In this document: positions 19,239 through 24,578 of the stretch, in pieces
How the letters are laid out: every line of letters starts with the position of its first letter
Position numbering within the stretch: the first letter of the stretch is position 1
NCBI GenBank assembly: GCA_020726265.1
Contig: DYSZ01000008.1
Span: 1-48,209, forward strand
Length of the DNA: 48,209 nucleotides
Direction: 5' to 3'
Source of the DNA: Draconibacterium orientale
GTDB taxonomy: Bacteria > Bacteroidota > Bacteroidia > Bacteroidales > Prolixibacteraceae
Program-made: the position numbers and the translations under genes
Notes under the pieces: generated by a model
What the model was told of the DNA's origin: nothing
Database searches by the model: none
Seen by the model: the letters and a program-made list of their open reading frames with translations, nothing else

Positions 19239-19562
19239 ATGGAAACGAAAACAGTTCAGCAAAGACTTGAAATACTCTCGGATGCAGCAAAATACAATGT
19301 TTCGTGTGCATCGAGCTGACGTAACCGGAAAGACAGCACCAAAGGAATTGGCAATGGAGTGGCCTGCGGAATATGCCACCGTTTTACCGAAGATGGCCGG
19401 TGTGTGAGCCTCTTCAAAATATTAATGACAAACCATTGTATTTACGATTGTGCCTACTGTACCAACCGCCGCAGCAACGACCGCCAGCACCCCTCCACTA
19501 AACGAATTAATATTGTTATTGCGAGCCGACCCAAAAGAGGCGACACAATCTTTAGTAGCTAA
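19239..19562 (+). pseudogene. Remnant of putative DNA modification/repair radical SAM protein
   Basis: The N-terminal quarter of this family is clear: METKTVQQRLEILSDAAKYNVSC, then NRKDSTKGIGNGVACGICH, GRCVSLFKILMTNHC and the cluster-binding motif CIYDCAYC. An in-frame TGA at 19317-19319 breaks it after SCASS, where the family normally continues with a Gly. Homology stops at NRRSND (about 19481); the following bases are repeat-like and lead to a TAA at 19560-19562. About three quarters of the gene is missing. Its normal partner, a TIGR03915-type protein, is found as a second remnant at 23814-24578 on the same strand. Confidence 0.8.
19515..19551. repeat. REP-like element (ATTGCGAG...CAATC type)
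   Basis: The stretch contains ATTGCGAGCC and, inverted and imperfect, GGCGACACAATC around a short centre. The ATTGCGAG...CAATCT theme is familiar from dispersed palindromic repeats in many genomes. It starts only about 35 bases after homology to the radical SAM protein ends. Assignment rests on recognition, not on a copy elsewhere in this window. Confidence 0.4.
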
Positions 19563-19580
19563 TATTCATTGTATTATAGA

Positions 19581-19663
19581 AATCTGTCAATGGTAAACGT
19601 ACGCGAGGAGAAATCTCTTCGAAAAGCAGATTTCTCCTCGCTCACTCGCGCCAATGACAGATT
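19581..19663. repeat. Long dispersed-type palindrome (GAGGAGAAATCT family)
   Basis: An 83-base imperfect palindrome. The core is a perfect 14-base stem (GCGAGGAGAAATCT at 19603-19616, AGATTTCTCCTCGC at 19628-19641) with an 11-base loop. The outer arms AATCTGTCAATGG (19581-19593) and CCAATGACAGATT (19651-19663) match at 12 of 13 positions. Elements with this GAGGAGAAATCT/AGATTTCTCCTC core are, from memory, widespread between genes in Bacteroidota. It covers a spurious open frame at 19569-19766. Confidence 0.7.
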
Positions 19664-19670
19664 TTGGGTT

Positions 19671-19729
19671 CGGGACTTTGAGTTTCCAAGTCAAAAATTT
19701 ATTGTCGGACTTGGAAAGTCCGACTCCCG
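19671..19729. repeat. Inverted repeat with CGGGA ends and internal hairpin
   Basis: Left arm 19671-19692 (CGGGACTTTGAGTTTCCAAG...) and right arm 19704-19729 (GTCGGACTTGGAAAGTCCGA...) are imperfect inverted copies sharing CGGGA ends. The right arm alone forms a perfect 9-base-pair hairpin (19704-19712 with 19716-19724, loop GGA). It may be a MITE-like or REP-like element, and it is also placed to act as a weak terminator for the minus-strand metal operon ending at 19799. Confidence 0.55.
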
Positions 19730-19798: not shown

Positions 19799-20338
19799 TT
19801 ACCTCCGTTTCAGAATTTTTATACTTAATCCTTTTTGTATTGACCAACCTTCCTTGTCGGTTAACGAAATATAGAAATGGTAATCTCCTTCATCAAACGC
19901 TCCATTTCCATTGCCTGCCGGAATGGTAATTTTCTGGCTGGTTTTGTATTCTCTGCTGCCTTGCGGAATATCGTAATCGTTGATAAAAACAAACGGATTT
20001 ACAGGAACTTTCTTTGGCCACAATTCACATTCAGTAACTTCGGAGCTGTGAGAGTGATGGTCGAAGTTGTTGTGGATATCGATGCTGTACGAACCCAGTT
20101 CAACGTTGTCTTTCAGCAAAGCCTGAAACGAAAAATCTTCGCCAAAATACAAAGTGTCGCAATTTACAGGGAACGCATCAGCAATAGTTAAATCGATTTC
20201 GGGTTTTTCGTCGTCGGTTTCCTGGTTGTTACAGGCGTTAAAAACTGCAAAAAGAAACACAAGAAAAACGGTCATCCACGCTTTCTTCCCAAATACTGAA
20301 ATAAAAAGTCCTTTTTTAATGGTCTTCATGTTCTCCAT
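19799..20338 (-). CDS. DUF4625 lipoprotein, probable metal-handling partner
   Basis: This 179-residue predicted lipoprotein has a signal ending at Cys36 (FLFAVFNACNN) after a basic N-terminus, and a DUF4625 beta-sandwich-like body. The segment HNNFDHHSHSSEVTECELW is rich in His and acidic residues and fits metal binding; that is inference. Two possible ATG starts (20336-20338 and 20327-20329) both overlap the end of the preceding DUF4625 gene, so translation is coupled. It is the last gene of the TonB receptor operon. It probably sits on the periplasmic or outer face of the outer membrane. Biochemical function is unknown. Confidence 0.82.
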   Translation of the reverse strand: MENMKTIKKGLFISVFGKKAWMTVFLVFLFAVFNACNNQETDDEKPEIDLTIADAFPVNCDTLYFGEDFSFQALLKDNVELGSYSIDIHNNFDHHSHSSEVTECELWPKKVPVNPFVFINDYDIPQGSREYKTSQKITIPAGNGNGAFDEGDYHFYISLTDKEGWSIQKGLSIKILKRR

Positions 20339-20759
20339 TGCTTTCTGTTAAAATTAAATCTTTTTCTTCTTCTGCCACATTCCCCGATTTATCGACAACC
20401 GAAAGATGAAAATGGTAGTCTCCATGTTTCGCATCGGCCGGAACCATAATTTCGTGATGGTGAACCGTGTAGTTTTTCAGTCCTGAAATTTCAGTAAAAA
20501 CAGTGTCAAGTTCCCAATGAATTGTTGTTGCACTTTTATGGTCTGCTTCAGGATGAATTTTTACCTGGTAATAGGCAAGCAATTCATCGTCACTCACTTC
20601 AAATTCAAGATGAATGGCTTCGCCTGCAAAAATTGAGTCGTTGTGTCCGACTTCCAGATTGCTAATTACAGGTTTTAAATCGTCATCGTTATTACAGGCA
20701 AACACAATAAATGCTGTAACAATCAATGATAAAACGGGCAGTAATTTTTTTGTTTTCAT
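20316..20759 (-). CDS. DUF4625-like lipoprotein with His-rich segments
   Basis: This 147-residue lipoprotein has a lipobox around Cys22 (FIVFACNN). The body matches the DUF4625 pattern (PVISNLEVGHNDSIFAGEAI, FEVSDDELLAYYQVKIH, DYHFHLSVVDKSGN). Several His-containing stretches (HPEADHKSATTIHW, YTVHHHEIMVPADAKH, NGEHEDH at the end) suggest metal binding by inference. It lies 28 bp after the TonB receptor and overlaps the second DUF4625 gene, so the two probably act together on one ligand. Confidence 0.82.
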   Translation of the reverse strand: MKTKKLLPVLSLIVTAFIVFACNNDDDLKPVISNLEVGHNDSIFAGEAIHLEFEVSDDELLAYYQVKIHPEADHKSATTIHWELDTVFTEISGLKNYTVHHHEIMVPADAKHGDYHFHLSVVDKSGNVAEEEKDLILTESNGEHEDH

Positions 20760-20787
20760 AATCTCTTAGTTTTTAAAATTTAAAAAT

Positions 20788-23190
20788 TTATTTCACGCTG
20801 AATGGGATGTTTACATTGACAACCAGATTTCTGCCGGGCTCGGGAACGTTGATGAGTCGGTAATAACTGGTATGGTTAAAGTATTTGGTATTGAAAAGAT
20901 TCTGAACCTGAACTGCAACAGAAACAACCTGACTTTTGAGCGGAATTCCGGCACCAAAAGCCAGATTAAAAATGGCCGAACCCGGAGTTTTTTCTTCAGG
21001 GGGTACAATGTTATTTTGTTTGGCAGTAATTCTGTAATCCACAGAAAAGTGCGGATTTGTGAGAACCCCGACTTTTTTGCGGGCGTATTTCAGGTTGAAC
21101 AGAACCGTAGCAGGAGGGGAAAATGGAAGAGTAAAACCCTTTTTCTCTCCTGATAACTGAACCGAATAAACGTAGTCGGTAATCAGCCCCAACTGCCAGT
21201 TTTCGGTGAATTCGCAATGCGAATGAATTTCGCCACCCCAGCGGAAAACCCGGCTCTGTGTGTAGTAGAAAACCTGGTTTCCGTTTCCGTACAAACGGTC
21301 GTGTTCCGAAGTTGGGTTCAGGTAAATATAGTTTGCAAAATAGTTTACAAACGGCGTTACACCGGCAGCAAAACGTGGGCTGTAAATTTCTAATCCGCCA
21401 TCAAACTGAAAAGCAATTTCGGGCGATAAATCAGGATTTCCAACCTCGTAACTGAAATGGTGATAATTTACACCGTTGGCAGCCAGTTCTTTGGCAATAG
21501 GCATTCTGAAACTTTTTCCCAGATTGGCTTTGGCCGAAAAATGTTCGCTGTTGAAGCTGTATCCAACCGAACCTGTGAAACTTGAAAAGCGTCTTGTTAG
21601 CGCCGGGGCACGTTGCAAATACGCCCAACCCGTGTCGGGTTCGGTTTCAACCGGACTTGGAAACCAGTCGGAATAAGCCTCGGTTTCAATCATTCCGAAA
21701 TCGTGGCGCAAACCTGCCTGAAGAATACTATTTTCCGAAGAGTTATACTTTACGTGCACAAATCCACCTGAGGTAAACTGTGTAAATGATGGAATTATAA
21801 AACCTCTTCCACCGGTTTTGTTATTTTGATATTCGGTTTGACTACCCAATGAAATCAGGGCTTTTTCAGAAGCTTGCAATTCGGTTTTTAAATTGGCTGA
21901 AAGAATGTACTTGTCGAATTCCAGTTCGAGATCGGACGGATAAGGCAGTGAATCGGGAAAAACCGCGGGCATGTAACCGTGGCTAACGTACTGGCTAAGT
22001 TCCTGTCTGAAATTCCACTGAAAACCGACGTCTGCCAAAAACTGCATTTGCTCTGTTCTCCATTCGGTTTTATTAATCGCTTTGAAATGATTCACAGTTT
22101 GATACGGATACTGAACATCGCGGTCTGATTTATCGTGAAAATTGGTGTCAACCCTGCGTGGTTCCAGTCCGTGGGCATTGGCAAAAAATCCGCTTTTATT
22201 GTACACGTTACTCAGAAAAAGTTTTGTTGAAAAACCGTTATTTACATAGCCGGCAGTAAAGTGGAGATCGATTTCGTCGCCGGCAGTGTTTCTCATTCGG
22301 TTTTCATACAGCGGGGCTTCGTAAGAGTAAATTTCAACACTGTCGGTTGGCACGCGATAATCGGCAAAATCGAGCAAAGTTACCCGGCCTGTGAAATACA
22401 ACTTTTCCCATCGGTTATAAAACATTGCCGAAAATCCTGCGAAATTGTTGTTGGTTTTTCCAATTAAATCAACGCTGCCACCAAAACTGTTTTTTACAGG
22501 TATCTCCAACTGTTTCAGCTCGATAACCCCGCCAATTCCATCAGAACCGTACATCAGCGAAGAGGGGCCTTTTATAACTACAATCCGGTCGGATGCAAAC
22601 TGGTCAACCTCAAGACCATGGTCGGCACCCCACTGCTGGCCTTCGTGTTTTATCCCGTTTTCGGTGACTACAACCCGGTTAAATCCAAGTCCGCGAATTA
22701 CCGGTTTCGACTGCCCCGAACCAATATCGATGGTACTGACACCCGGTAAACGGTCGAGCGATTTCATCAGGCTGCCACCCAGGTTTTGTTTTAAATACTC
22801 GTTGTTTACCACTTCAACACTTACCGATTCCTCCCGTTTCCGTTGATCGGCGTAATTATCAGTTATGGTAATTTCGTTCAGCGTCAATAATTCAGGTTCA
22901 AGAGTGATTTCGAGCGTTACGTTGTTTTTCAGGTTCAACTGACAGGAATATTTTTTATACCCCAGGTAAATAACCTGGATTGTATAATCGCCGGGCTGCA
23001 GTTTACCGATAATAAACTTTCCGTTTTTATCGGTTACAGTCCCGTAATTCCCCGGACTTACCAATACCGATGCTGCCGGTAATGGCTGTTTGTCGTTATC
23101 GCCGACAATGCCCGATAATGTAAATATTTGCTGACTTATTGCTGAAACCGGCAGTGCCAATACAACAAACAGCAACCAAAAAACCCTCAT
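20788..23190 (-). CDS. TonB-dependent outer-membrane receptor with carboxypeptidase-regulatory domain
   Basis: This 800-residue receptor should import a scarce ligand across the outer membrane using TonB energy. Residues 1-20 are a signal peptide. Residues about 22-105 form a carboxypeptidase-regulatory-like beta-sandwich (GIVGDNDKQPLPAASVLV...YLGYKKY). A plug domain follows (SLDRLPGVSTIDIGSGQSKPV to MYGSDGIGGVIEL, about 145-225), then the barrel with typical PDLSPEIAFQFDGGLEIYSP. It is not a SusC, being short and lacking a SusD partner. Its neighbours are a His/Cys-rich small protein and two DUF4625 lipoproteins, which points to a metal or metal-complex ligand, perhaps like ZnuD. That is inference. 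Confidence 0.92.
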   Translation of the reverse strand: MRVFWLLFVVLALPVSAISQQIFTLSGIVGDNDKQPLPAASVLVSPGNYGTVTDKNGKFIIGKLQPGDYTIQVIYLGYKKYSCQLNLKNNVTLEITLEPELLTLNEITITDNYADQRKREESVSVEVVNNEYLKQNLGGSLMKSLDRLPGVSTIDIGSGQSKPVIRGLGFNRVVVTENGIKHEGQQWGADHGLEVDQFASDRIVVIKGPSSLMYGSDGIGGVIELKQLEIPVKNSFGGSVDLIGKTNNNFAGFSAMFYNRWEKLYFTGRVTLLDFADYRVPTDSVEIYSYEAPLYENRMRNTAGDEIDLHFTAGYVNNGFSTKLFLSNVYNKSGFFANAHGLEPRRVDTNFHDKSDRDVQYPYQTVNHFKAINKTEWRTEQMQFLADVGFQWNFRQELSQYVSHGYMPAVFPDSLPYPSDLELEFDKYILSANLKTELQASEKALISLGSQTEYQNNKTGGRGFIIPSFTQFTSGGFVHVKYNSSENSILQAGLRHDFGMIETEAYSDWFPSPVETEPDTGWAYLQRAPALTRRFSSFTGSVGYSFNSEHFSAKANLGKSFRMPIAKELAANGVNYHHFSYEVGNPDLSPEIAFQFDGGLEIYSPRFAAGVTPFVNYFANYIYLNPTSEHDRLYGNGNQVFYYTQSRVFRWGGEIHSHCEFTENWQLGLITDYVYSVQLSGEKKGFTLPFSPPATVLFNLKYARKKVGVLTNPHFSVDYRITAKQNNIVPPEEKTPGSAIFNLAFGAGIPLKSQVVSVAVQVQNLFNTKYFNHTSYYRLINVPEPGRNLVVNVNIPFSVK

Positions 23191-23244
23191 AGCTGAAGTT
23201 TATGACTTTTTGTAATAAAAAATGAACTGATAAAAAGCTGAACA

Positions 23245-23601
23245 TCAGCAAGTGGGAGGCGCTCTTGGTATTAAATTGGAAAATATGTTTTTTGAATATC
23301 CTTTCAGCGGGACAGAAAATACCTGTCCGGTTTCGATTACAATATTTTGTAAGGATAAAAACTCAGCCGGGACTTCGTTTATCGGGAAATGATAACTACA
23401 AATGGGGCAGGGCTCTTCTTTTTCTTCGGTAACATCGAAACCCGCAAAACCAAAGTCAGAATGTGGCTCACTGCAACTTACCGAACACTGTGTACAATGC
23501 GAATGCCCGTGATGAACCACCACGTGAAAAGGCTGGTAAATCAGCGGAAAGCTGAAAATGCCAAACAATAAAAAAGCAATATTTCGAATTGTGTTTCTCA
23601 A
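23245..23601 (-). CDS. Exported His/Cys-rich small protein, probable metal binder
   Basis: This 118-residue protein has an N-terminal signal or anchor segment (NIAFLLFGIFSFPLIYQ) followed at once by HHGHSHCTQCSVSCSE. Further on is a CPICSYHF pair, and it ends in SNLIPRAPPTC. Small His/Cys-rich proteins ending in RAPP-like tails beside TonB receptors are known in Bacteroidota but not functionally defined. The start is TTG (23599-23601), since no in-frame ATG lies nearby; this is the least secure point. It is the first gene of the putative metal operon, 54 bp ahead of the receptor. Zinc or copper binding is inferred from composition only. Confidence 0.7.
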   Translation of the reverse strand: MRNTIRNIAFLLFGIFSFPLIYQPFHVVVHHGHSHCTQCSVSCSEPHSDFGFAGFDVTEEKEEPCPICSYHFPINEVPAEFLSLQNIVIETGQVFSVPLKGYSKNIFSNLIPRAPPTC

Positions 23602-23665: not shown

Positions 23666-23686
23666 TGCAACAACGTTGCAAATATA
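23666..23686 (-). promoter_or_regulatory. Palindromic operator overlapping the metal-operon promoter
   Basis: TGCAAC-AAC-GTTGCA (23666-23680) is a perfect 6-base inverted repeat with a 3-base centre. It overlaps a minus-strand TATATTTG box (23679-23686), which fits the Bacteroidota -7 consensus TAnnTTTG. A repressor bound here would block the transcription start. The shape suits a Fur/Zur-family or other metal regulator, but I do not claim a match to a known motif. Confidence 0.55.
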
Positions 23687-23813
23687 GTATTTGTTTAATC
23701 TGAATTGAATAAATTTTTTTATGCATTGAAAAAATGAATTTAAAACCGAGTGGTTAGACTATAAAAAATGCTGTTTTATTGGAAACAAAACCGAAGATAA
23801 AATTGACACTGAT

Positions 23814-24578
23814 TTACACTACGACGGGACTTTTGAAGGATTTCTCACTGCCATTTTTGAGTGTTACAACCGCAAGGATTTTCCAGTTGAAATTGTTTCG
23901 CGCGATGGTGAACAGAAATACCTTTTTGCCCAAAAAGTAGATGTTCAAACCGATGAACCCATGGCGGAGCGGGTTTAGAAGGGTATTCTGCAAAAAATGA
24001 CGGAGAAAAACAAGCAGTTTGTGTTTTATGCTTTTCTCTCGGAGGAGCAGGGAATTGAGATGAAAATTTACCGTTTTCTGCGACGGCTGTTCAGCAGCAA
24101 TCTGAATATTGAAACCGATTTTGGCGACCCGGATGTTTTGTATCTCACACAAACTTCGCGGAAAGTTAAGCAGGAAGCCATGCGGATGCTACAGTTTGTA
24201 AGGTTTCAGCACACAAAAGACGGGTTGTATTTCTGTGGAATTGAACCGTGCTATGATGTTATTCCGCTTGTGGTAAGCCGGTTTCAGAAACGATTTGCCG
24301 ACCAGTGCTGGCTTTTGTACGACTTAAAACGAAATTATGGCATGTTGTACGATAAAAACAAACCGCAGGAAGTAGTGATTTCGAACAAGGAATTCAGTTC
24401 GATAACCGGACAGGTAAACGAAAATGTGTTACAGGAAGGGGAGGAGTTTTACCAGAAATTGTGGAAATCGTATGTCACACACATCAACATTCAGGAACGC
24501 GAAAACCTGAAACAGCAACGACAACACCTACCTCGCCGGTTCTGGAAATTTTTGCCGGAGATGATGATTCTGAATTAG
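23814..24578 (+). pseudogene. Decayed TIGR03915-type putative DNA repair protein
   Basis: Family sequence begins at LHYDGTFEGFLTAIFECYNRKDFP with no ATG in frame nearby. It is interrupted by TAG at 23976-23978 (AERV-stop-KGILQK, where the family has Trp, so TGG to TAG). It then runs intact to PRRFWKFLPE and a TAG at 24576-24578. The later part (GDPDVLYLTQ, MLQFVRFQHTKDGLYF, RFADQCWLLYDLKRNYG, LWKSYVTHINIQERENLKQ) matches the family throughout. Such proteins are encoded next to a radical SAM protein and are thought to act in DNA repair. Here that gene is the remnant at 19239-19562. A 193-residue fragment could still be started at ATG 23997. Confidence 0.8.

Follow-up and report, generated by a model that had tools for sequence, protein, structure and literature searches.

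A candidate zinc-acquisition operon combining a ZnuD-like receptor with a pair of DUF4625 lipoproteins in Draconibacterium orientale

Introduction

Which substrate is imported by a TonB-dependent receptor that is encoded together with two DUF4625 lipoproteins and a small His/Cys-rich protein, and what do these partners contribute? The question is raised by four minus-strand genes at positions 19799-23601 of a 48,209-nucleotide stretch of Draconibacterium orientale DNA (contig DYSZ01000008.1; the whole stretch is hereafter called the window). A preliminary description of the window had proposed that the four genes form a metal-uptake operon. The analysis reported here supports this proposal as a genomic inference and narrows the metal, left open there among zinc, copper and iron, to zinc, because of a Zur-like box in front of the genes and the zinc genes in whose company this box is found. 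We consider it likely that the locus is a Zur-controlled zinc-acquisition operon, in which a ZnuD-like receptor is served by DUF4625 proteins as capture partners and by the small His/Cys protein as acceptor.

Outer-membrane zinc uptake is known in detail in Proteobacteria. Our search of the open literature, with subscription journals mostly outside its reach, found no publication naming DUF4625 and no description, for Bacteroidota, of a Zur box or of a zinc receptor under Zur control. The nearest report is a study of ZntR in Riemerella, the available text of which suggests, via proteome changes, that several TonB receptors take part in zinc homeostasis (PMC11960050).

Results

Gene set and operator

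The features of the operon and its promoter region are the following:

23679..23686, minus strand: TATATTTG, match to the -7 promoter element, overlapping the left arm of the operator
23666..23680, minus strand: Zur-like operator, the perfect palindrome TGCAACGTTGTTGCA (TGCAAC-GTT-GTTGCA), 64 bp upstream of the first gene
23245..23601, minus strand: small exported or membrane-anchored His/Cys protein (open reading frame (ORF) of 118 aa with a TTG start)
20788..23190, minus strand: TonB-dependent receptor, ZnuD-like (ORF of 800 aa; CarboxypepD_reg_2, Plug and barrel domains)
20316..20759, minus strand: DUF4625 lipoprotein A (ORF of 147 aa; Pfam match, predicted structure, column conservation)
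19799..20338, minus strand: DUF4625 lipoprotein B (ORF of 179 aa; Pfam match, predicted structure, column conservation)

The four ORFs were confirmed as closely spaced, with two intergenic gaps of 28 and 54 bases and an overlap of 23 bases (20316-20338) shared by the DUF4625-A and DUF4625-B genes. The HHGHSHC, CTQC and CPIC motifs ascribed to the small protein are all present exactly as claimed. Both lipoproteins exceed the gathering score of 27 for DUF4625 (PF15418), with 135.2 and 85.8 bits, and the receptor carries, besides CarboxypepD_reg_2, a Plug domain (PF07715, 65.3 bits) and a beta-barrel domain (PF00593, 92.8 bits) above the Pfam cut-offs. A search of the whole genome found no DUF4625 genes beyond the two in the operon. 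The palindromic operator at 23666-23680 lies outside the span covered by the preliminary description and had gone unnoticed there.

Conservation of the operon

The preliminary description had named, as ways to check its proposal, a search for DUF4625 genes beside TonB receptors in other Bacteroidota and a test of whether the small protein co-occurs with them. A receptor-alignment scan of 84,980 species genomes gave at least 584 confirmed stretches, and the best 80 of these 584, chosen with peptide patterns covering the plug histidine, were used as homologous loci. So far as their titles name the organism, all 80 belong to Bacteroidota, and they include Bacteroidales, Flavobacterium, Tenacibaculum, Pedobacter, Chitinophaga and Algoriphagus. 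A DUF4625 gene adjoins the receptor gene in 77 of the 77 evaluable loci, the count excluding L060, L075 and L107, which have less than 800 bases downstream; both DUF4625 types are found in 66. A refined profile finds the small protein at 63 of 79 loci, whereas the smaller profile used first found it at 36 of 80, and a FUR gene lies within 3 kb at 17 of 79 loci (L060 is excluded from upstream counts). The refined profiles were partly trained on the same 80 loci; the counts of DUF4625 genes, small-protein genes and boxes with at most one mismatch come from the refined set of gene models, and the counts of exact boxes upstream and elsewhere, like the lower small-protein count, come from the first set. 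The core genes are closely spaced, with a median gap of 40.5 bases (220 gaps).

In a panel of genomes from the order of D. orientale (the order panel), 25 of the 27 receptor matches (E<=1e-80) have a DUF4625 gene no further than about 3 kb away, all but the two weakest, and 42 of the 49 DUF4625 matches of at least 54 bits adjoin such a receptor. Both numbers were tallied by eye, with at most six candidates scored per genome, so that further copies are possible. Among the seven DUF4625 matches that stand without the receptor, one lies beside a gene of the small-protein family (L154) and another consists of two paired DUF4625 genes (L150). In G072, the one other panel genome of the same family, no DUF4625 or receptor match was found at the thresholds used. 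An unconserved neighbourhood would have spoken against the original proposal; the gene set recurs across the phylum, and because of this recurrence we regard it as not a product of chance.

A Zur-like box shared with zinc genes

The sequence TATATTTG fits TAnnTTTG, which we take to be the consensus of the Bacteroidota -7 promoter element, and a repressor bound to the palindrome would cover the promoter. A TAnnTTTG element occupies the same overlapping place at 24 of 50 boxes compared, an observed share given without a background rate. In the upstream regions of the homologous operons, 14 exact boxes (at 10 loci) were found in 68 kb, compared with 2 in the remaining 1,204 kb. Exact copies of TGCAACNNNGTTGCA number two in the D. 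orientale genome (3,858,324 bases in 346 contigs), and one of these is the copy at the operon. The other (L002:1501-1515, corresponding to G000:C307:7904-7918) lies upstream of a lipoprotein-like gene truncated by the contig end, which is perhaps another member of the regulon.

The exact box is present in 48 of 149 genomes of the order. When 30 of these sites were read, one per genome, seven were located where a gene of the FUR family begins, between 16 bases inside and 57 bases upstream of the called start, and two others beside such a gene; a random site would almost never fall at the start of a FUR gene. The FUR gene preceded by an exact box heads the order zur-small protein-receptor-DUF4625-DUF4625 in L036, L037 and L038, and zur-receptor-DUF4625-DUF4625 in L052. 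It accompanies ZnuA, ABC transporter and permease genes in L041, L042 and L054, and CobW GTPase genes in L040 and L048. A span of about 10 kb in L040 (genome G118) holds zur, three CobW-type GTPases, the GTP cyclohydrolase FolE, several other genes, the small protein and the receptor; DUF4625 lies past the end of this stretch, and one of the three GTPases scores 566 bits for ZigA (cut-off 600).

The operator is also common to zinc genes in the D. orientale genome itself. A one-mismatch box lies 20 bases upstream of a Zur-like gene (contig C213), and a ZIP transporter gene (PF02535, 160 bits) follows downstream; the other FUR match of this genome is PerR-like and stands beside a gene whose sequence looks peroxiredoxin-like. 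Two further loci combine box, regulator and zinc genes. In L128 the order is box, MerC, FolE (above cut-off), ABC ATPase, permease, small unnamed protein, receptor, DUF4625-A and DUF4625-B, with a divergent FUR gene across the box. In L087 four boxes with at most one mismatch are distributed among genes for CobW, a GTPase that scores 560 bits for ZigA (cut-off 600), MerC, an ABC transporter, DUF4625-A, FUR, the receptor and DUF4625-B. A lipoprotein resembling the zinc metallochaperone AztD is encoded downstream of the operon at 8 of 80 loci, from Flavobacteriaceae and Pedobacter (for example, L068:11385-12599 and L072:11694-12900); two such lipoproteins were scanned and scored 73 and 79 bits, below the cut-off of 400. 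ZIP, ZigA-like GTPases, FolE and AztD-like proteins are zinc-starvation genes, by their membership in regulons elsewhere.

This company bears on the idea that another divalent metal (manganese, nickel, cobalt or copper) is imported. The ZnuA-family protein of L041 scores slightly higher on MntC (manganese, 96.0 bits) than on AdcA (zinc, 89.0 bits), and a copper-receptor model matches the window receptor weakly (72.7 bits). However, in L042 and L054 the highest scores of the ZnuA proteins are for the zinc binders AdcA and AztC, and the neighbouring ZIP, ZigA-like, FolE and AztD-like genes are those of zinc starvation. We therefore regard import of another metal as very unlikely.

Four loci contain, beside the operon, an ABC ATPase, a permease of the MacB/FtsX type and a small exported protein lacking a Pfam match:

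L087:3695-6192, beside the operon
L095:12843-15125, beside the operon
L098:5440-7780, beside the operon
L128:5069-7456, beside the operon

A similar ABC pair follows zur-CobW-CobW in L048, and the operon-adjacent set is possibly a further zinc transporter. In L039 (L014) a divergent Zur-like gene is separated by a box from the gene of a more distant TonB receptor, which is 28% identical over the aligned part; no DUF4625 gene was found on this short contig.

Relationship of the receptor to ZnuD

The preliminary description had held that kinship with sugar or siderophore receptors of known different substrate would count against its proposal. When the profile of the receptor family was compared with the sequences of the PDB, the top match, and hence the nearest relative of solved structure, was the zinc receptor ZnuD of Neisseria meningitidis (4rdr; E 2.5e-27, 98.7 bits), followed by the TonB-linked receptor 9gbc (3e-20), a SusC homologue (1.2e-14) and haem receptors (2.5e-11, best 45.7 bits). 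The window receptor scores 122.7 bits on the ZnuD model NF038289, under the cut-off of 950, and is thus described as ZnuD-like but not classed as ZnuD.

In the available text on ZnuD, H100 and H499 are listed as zinc ligands that share a site (PMC4557270). The numbering offset of 14, by which these become chain residues 114 and 513, was inferred from the chain length. H191 of the window receptor aligns with H100 of ZnuD; the column of H499 is occupied by N575, with H577 two residues on, so that this counterpart is only approximate. The ligand positions were examined in order-panel receptors because the 80 loci had been picked by plug-histidine patterns; 21 of the 27 matching receptors were compared with 11 controls, and the alignment to controls as distant as these is rough. 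H191 is retained in 20 of the 21 family receptors, and a histidine is found at position 575 or 577 in 20 of 20. A [D/E]H pair at the plug position is present in 18 of 21 family receptors versus none of the 11 other TonB receptors, one of which has a lone histidine there. Two divergent receptor-DUF4625-DUF4625 operons, L158 and L159, have lost the plug [D/E]H pair and possibly serve another metal.

Haem, iron or zinc

Several observations weigh against a zinc receptor under Zur control. The box, even with one mismatch allowed, was not found in 53 of the 80 homologous operons, and 14 of the 15 loci titled Prevotella or Prevotellaceae are among those without it. No FUR gene is near 21 of the 30 exact order-panel boxes read, and boxes also adjoin metal-efflux genes (L043, L044, L046 and L049). 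The FUR protein of D. orientale scores 29 bits on the Zur model NF008646, below its cut-off of 167; because of this poor match, the FUR proteins are named Zur-like here from their genome context. The Zur-like proteins have HxHFxCxxC and CxxC motifs in common. Finally, the haem models of NCBIfam beat the ZnuD model in 6 of the 10 single receptors scanned, the window receptor included, and ZnuD leads in the other 4. The receptor also has an FRMP and an NPDL motif, separated by a stretch that includes a histidine, and the two motifs presumably resemble the FRAP and NPNL motifs of haem receptors.

The last two points are those on which a role in haem or iron uptake would rest: the receptor would be a haem receptor, the DUF4625 proteins would be HmuY-like haem scavengers, and control would lie with an iron sensor of the Fur type. 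The window receptor scores 127.1 bits on the haem model TIGR01785 (TonB-hemin; cut-off 316.85) against the 122.7 bits for ZnuD, and across the 10 receptors the two scores are near-equal and all far below cut-off. ZnuD itself, however, was formerly misannotated as a haem transporter owing to motifs common with haem receptors, as the available text states (PMC4557270). In the profile search of the PDB, moreover, ZnuD stands at more than twice the bit score of the best haem receptor. The box and its regulator accompany ZIP, ZnuA, CobW/ZigA, FolE and AztD-like genes, and none of the eight recurrent neighbour clusters is haem- or siderophore-like, most of them having been judged by eye. We thus find a haem or iron operon very unlikely and retain Zur-controlled zinc acquisition as the favoured reading.

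The genes at the efflux-side boxes are as follows. The exact boxes in L043 and L044 stand beside genes for small His-rich exported DUF6769 proteins, RND efflux genes (named by eye) are found near the exact boxes in L043, L044 and L049, and the exact box of L046 is beside a P-type metal ATPase gene that is followed by a FUR gene. Perhaps these genes serve an efflux that is linked to zinc and controlled by the same regulator or by a sister of it. Zur of Caulobacter, in the part of the study available, also activates RND and P-type ATPase efflux (PMC4176598), and the boxes in L043, L044, L046 and L049 may, by analogy, recall this arrangement.

The DUF4625 lipoproteins and the small protein

AlphaFold2 predicted confident Ig-like sandwiches for both DUF4625 proteins, with mean confidence scores (pLDDT) of 91.5 for B and 85.1 for A; the structural neighbours of the models are generic only. 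In DUF4625-B, histidines make up 5 of the 33 columns conserved at 85% or more (H89, H94, H95, H97 and H154), compared with an overall histidine content of 4.4%. Four of them form a conserved HxNFDHHxH motif (H89, H94, H95 and H97), and C60 and C104 are conserved too. In DUF4625-A, 3 of the 19 columns conserved to this degree are histidines (H50, H100 and H102; overall content 5.5%). An acidic stretch follows the lipobox cysteine in both window proteins (CNNDDD and CNNQETDDE), and at least three acidic residues occur in the nine after the cysteine in 40 of 59 B proteins and 27 of 39 A proteins, numbers obtained with no control set and with an imperfect automatic choice of the cysteine. This stretch resembles the lipoprotein export signal (LES) of the phylum, a polar residue and then acidic ones directly behind the cysteine, as given in the available text of its description (PMC5080379), and we tentatively place the DUF4625 lipoproteins on the cell surface.

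The small protein has no Pfam match, including DUF2946 (PF11162) at E<=1. Its family (33 members) has a histidine (H26) after an N-terminal hydrophobic segment, a CxxC motif and a C-terminal R(A/G)PP; the histidine, the first cysteine and the two prolines are invariant, and the second cysteine is retained in 88%. Seven of the 33 members match DUF2946 weakly (E<=0.1, best 1.4e-4). DUF2946 and the small-protein family presumably have an RxPP-type tail in common. The small protein may be a membrane-anchored zinc acceptor, and this is the least certain of the proposed roles.

The partners could also belong to zinc homeostasis in another way: instead of delivering to the receptor, the DUF4625 and small proteins might act as sensors, protect the envelope or store zinc. 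The physical partnership of DUF4625 and receptor is drawn by analogy, the Ig-like fold occurs in many unrelated proteins, and 7 of the 49 strong order-panel DUF4625 matches have no such receptor alongside. On the other hand, the core genes are packed with the small median gap given above, and the conserved histidines together with the acidic stretch after the lipobox cysteine fit capture at the surface. Such a function apart from delivery appears rather unlikely to us, though less so than either haem or another metal as the substrate, and we continue with DUF4625 as the capture partner of the receptor.

Flanking sequences

Three features lie at the borders of the operon:

19704..19724, minus strand: candidate terminator hairpin GTCGGACTT-TCC-AAGTCCGAC followed by an A/T-rich tract, found by eye
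19254-19487, plus strand: remnant of a TIGR03916 radical-SAM gene
~23800-24578, plus strand: TIGR03915 gene; with the TIGR03916 remnant, a linked DNA-repair pair flanking the operon

One listed inverted repeat (I5) overlaps the candidate terminator. Beside the left end of the operon, at 19580-19664, there is a further inverted repeat of 37 bases, imperfect with 78% complementarity. The TIGR03916 remnant covers the first 78 of 415 model positions, contains one internal TGA and is the sole match in the genome, and the TIGR03915 gene is interrupted by an in-frame TAG. Because TIGR03916 and TIGR03915 genes are linked partners in other genomes, the operon appears to have been inserted into the pair and to have disrupted it.

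Discussion

The computed gene set, its conservation, the box with its zinc-gene association and the kinship of the receptor to ZnuD are the basis of a model in which zinc as the substrate, repression, surface exposure and the roles of the DUF4625 and small proteins are predicted from sequence. When zinc is plentiful, the Zur-like FUR protein encoded on C213, beside the ZIP transporter, would sit on the palindrome over the -7 element and block transcription. When zinc is short, the regulator would release the operator and the four genes would be expressed. The receptor would then carry free or weakly chelated zinc across the outer membrane in a TonB-driven manner via a plug/barrel site including H191 and H577. 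The DUF4625 pair, probably exported to the surface, would catch zinc and pass it on to the receptor, in the manner of BtuG handing vitamin B12 to BtuB. The small His/Cys protein, anchored by its N-terminal hydrophobic segment, would serve as a periplasmic acceptor handing zinc toward ZIP or ZnuABC.

The mechanism is patterned on two known cases, the BtuB-BtuG lids and the Zur regulon of Caulobacter, to which TonB receptors for zinc belong. In Bacteroides, surface lipoproteins form lids on the vitamin B12 receptor, according to the available text (PMC10404256). A TonB receptor with a lipoprotein partner is common to that system and the present one; a surface lid formed by DUF4625 is proposed by analogy, and the substrate there is a different one. 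The receptors ZnuK and ZnuL of Caulobacter are, likewise, Zur-controlled TonB receptors scavenging zinc, but the operator is of the GTTAT...ATAAC type and no lipoprotein partner is reported in the portion of the study available (PMC4176598). With ZnuD the window receptor has in common the plug and barrel homology, counterparts of H100 and H499 and the proposed Zur control; it differs in its extra CarboxypepD_reg_2 domain, the two DUF4625 lipoproteins, the small His/Cys protein and a score far below the ZnuD cut-off. The small size of the His/Cys protein and the weak matches within its family recall DUF2946, although the window protein itself does not match. The known part is thus the ZnuD-like zinc receptor system, and the new part is the lipoprotein partners.

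A broader proposal, to which we give about even chances, is that DUF4625 is a surface zinc-capture family whose pair forms a lid-like complex with the ZnuD-like receptor, a lipoprotein-assisted metal-ion counterpart of SusCD and BtuBG by which Bacteroidota widely scavenge zinc under the control of a Zur box of the TTGCAACnnnGTTGCAA type. If the reading of the operon given here is right, DUF4625 would gain a predicted function, and a candidate Zur operator with a set of target genes would become available for a major phylum of gut, soil and marine bacteria. Lipoprotein-assisted TonB uptake would then reach a metal ion, beyond sugars and vitamin B12, and zinc scavenging by Bacteroidota would become directly testable.

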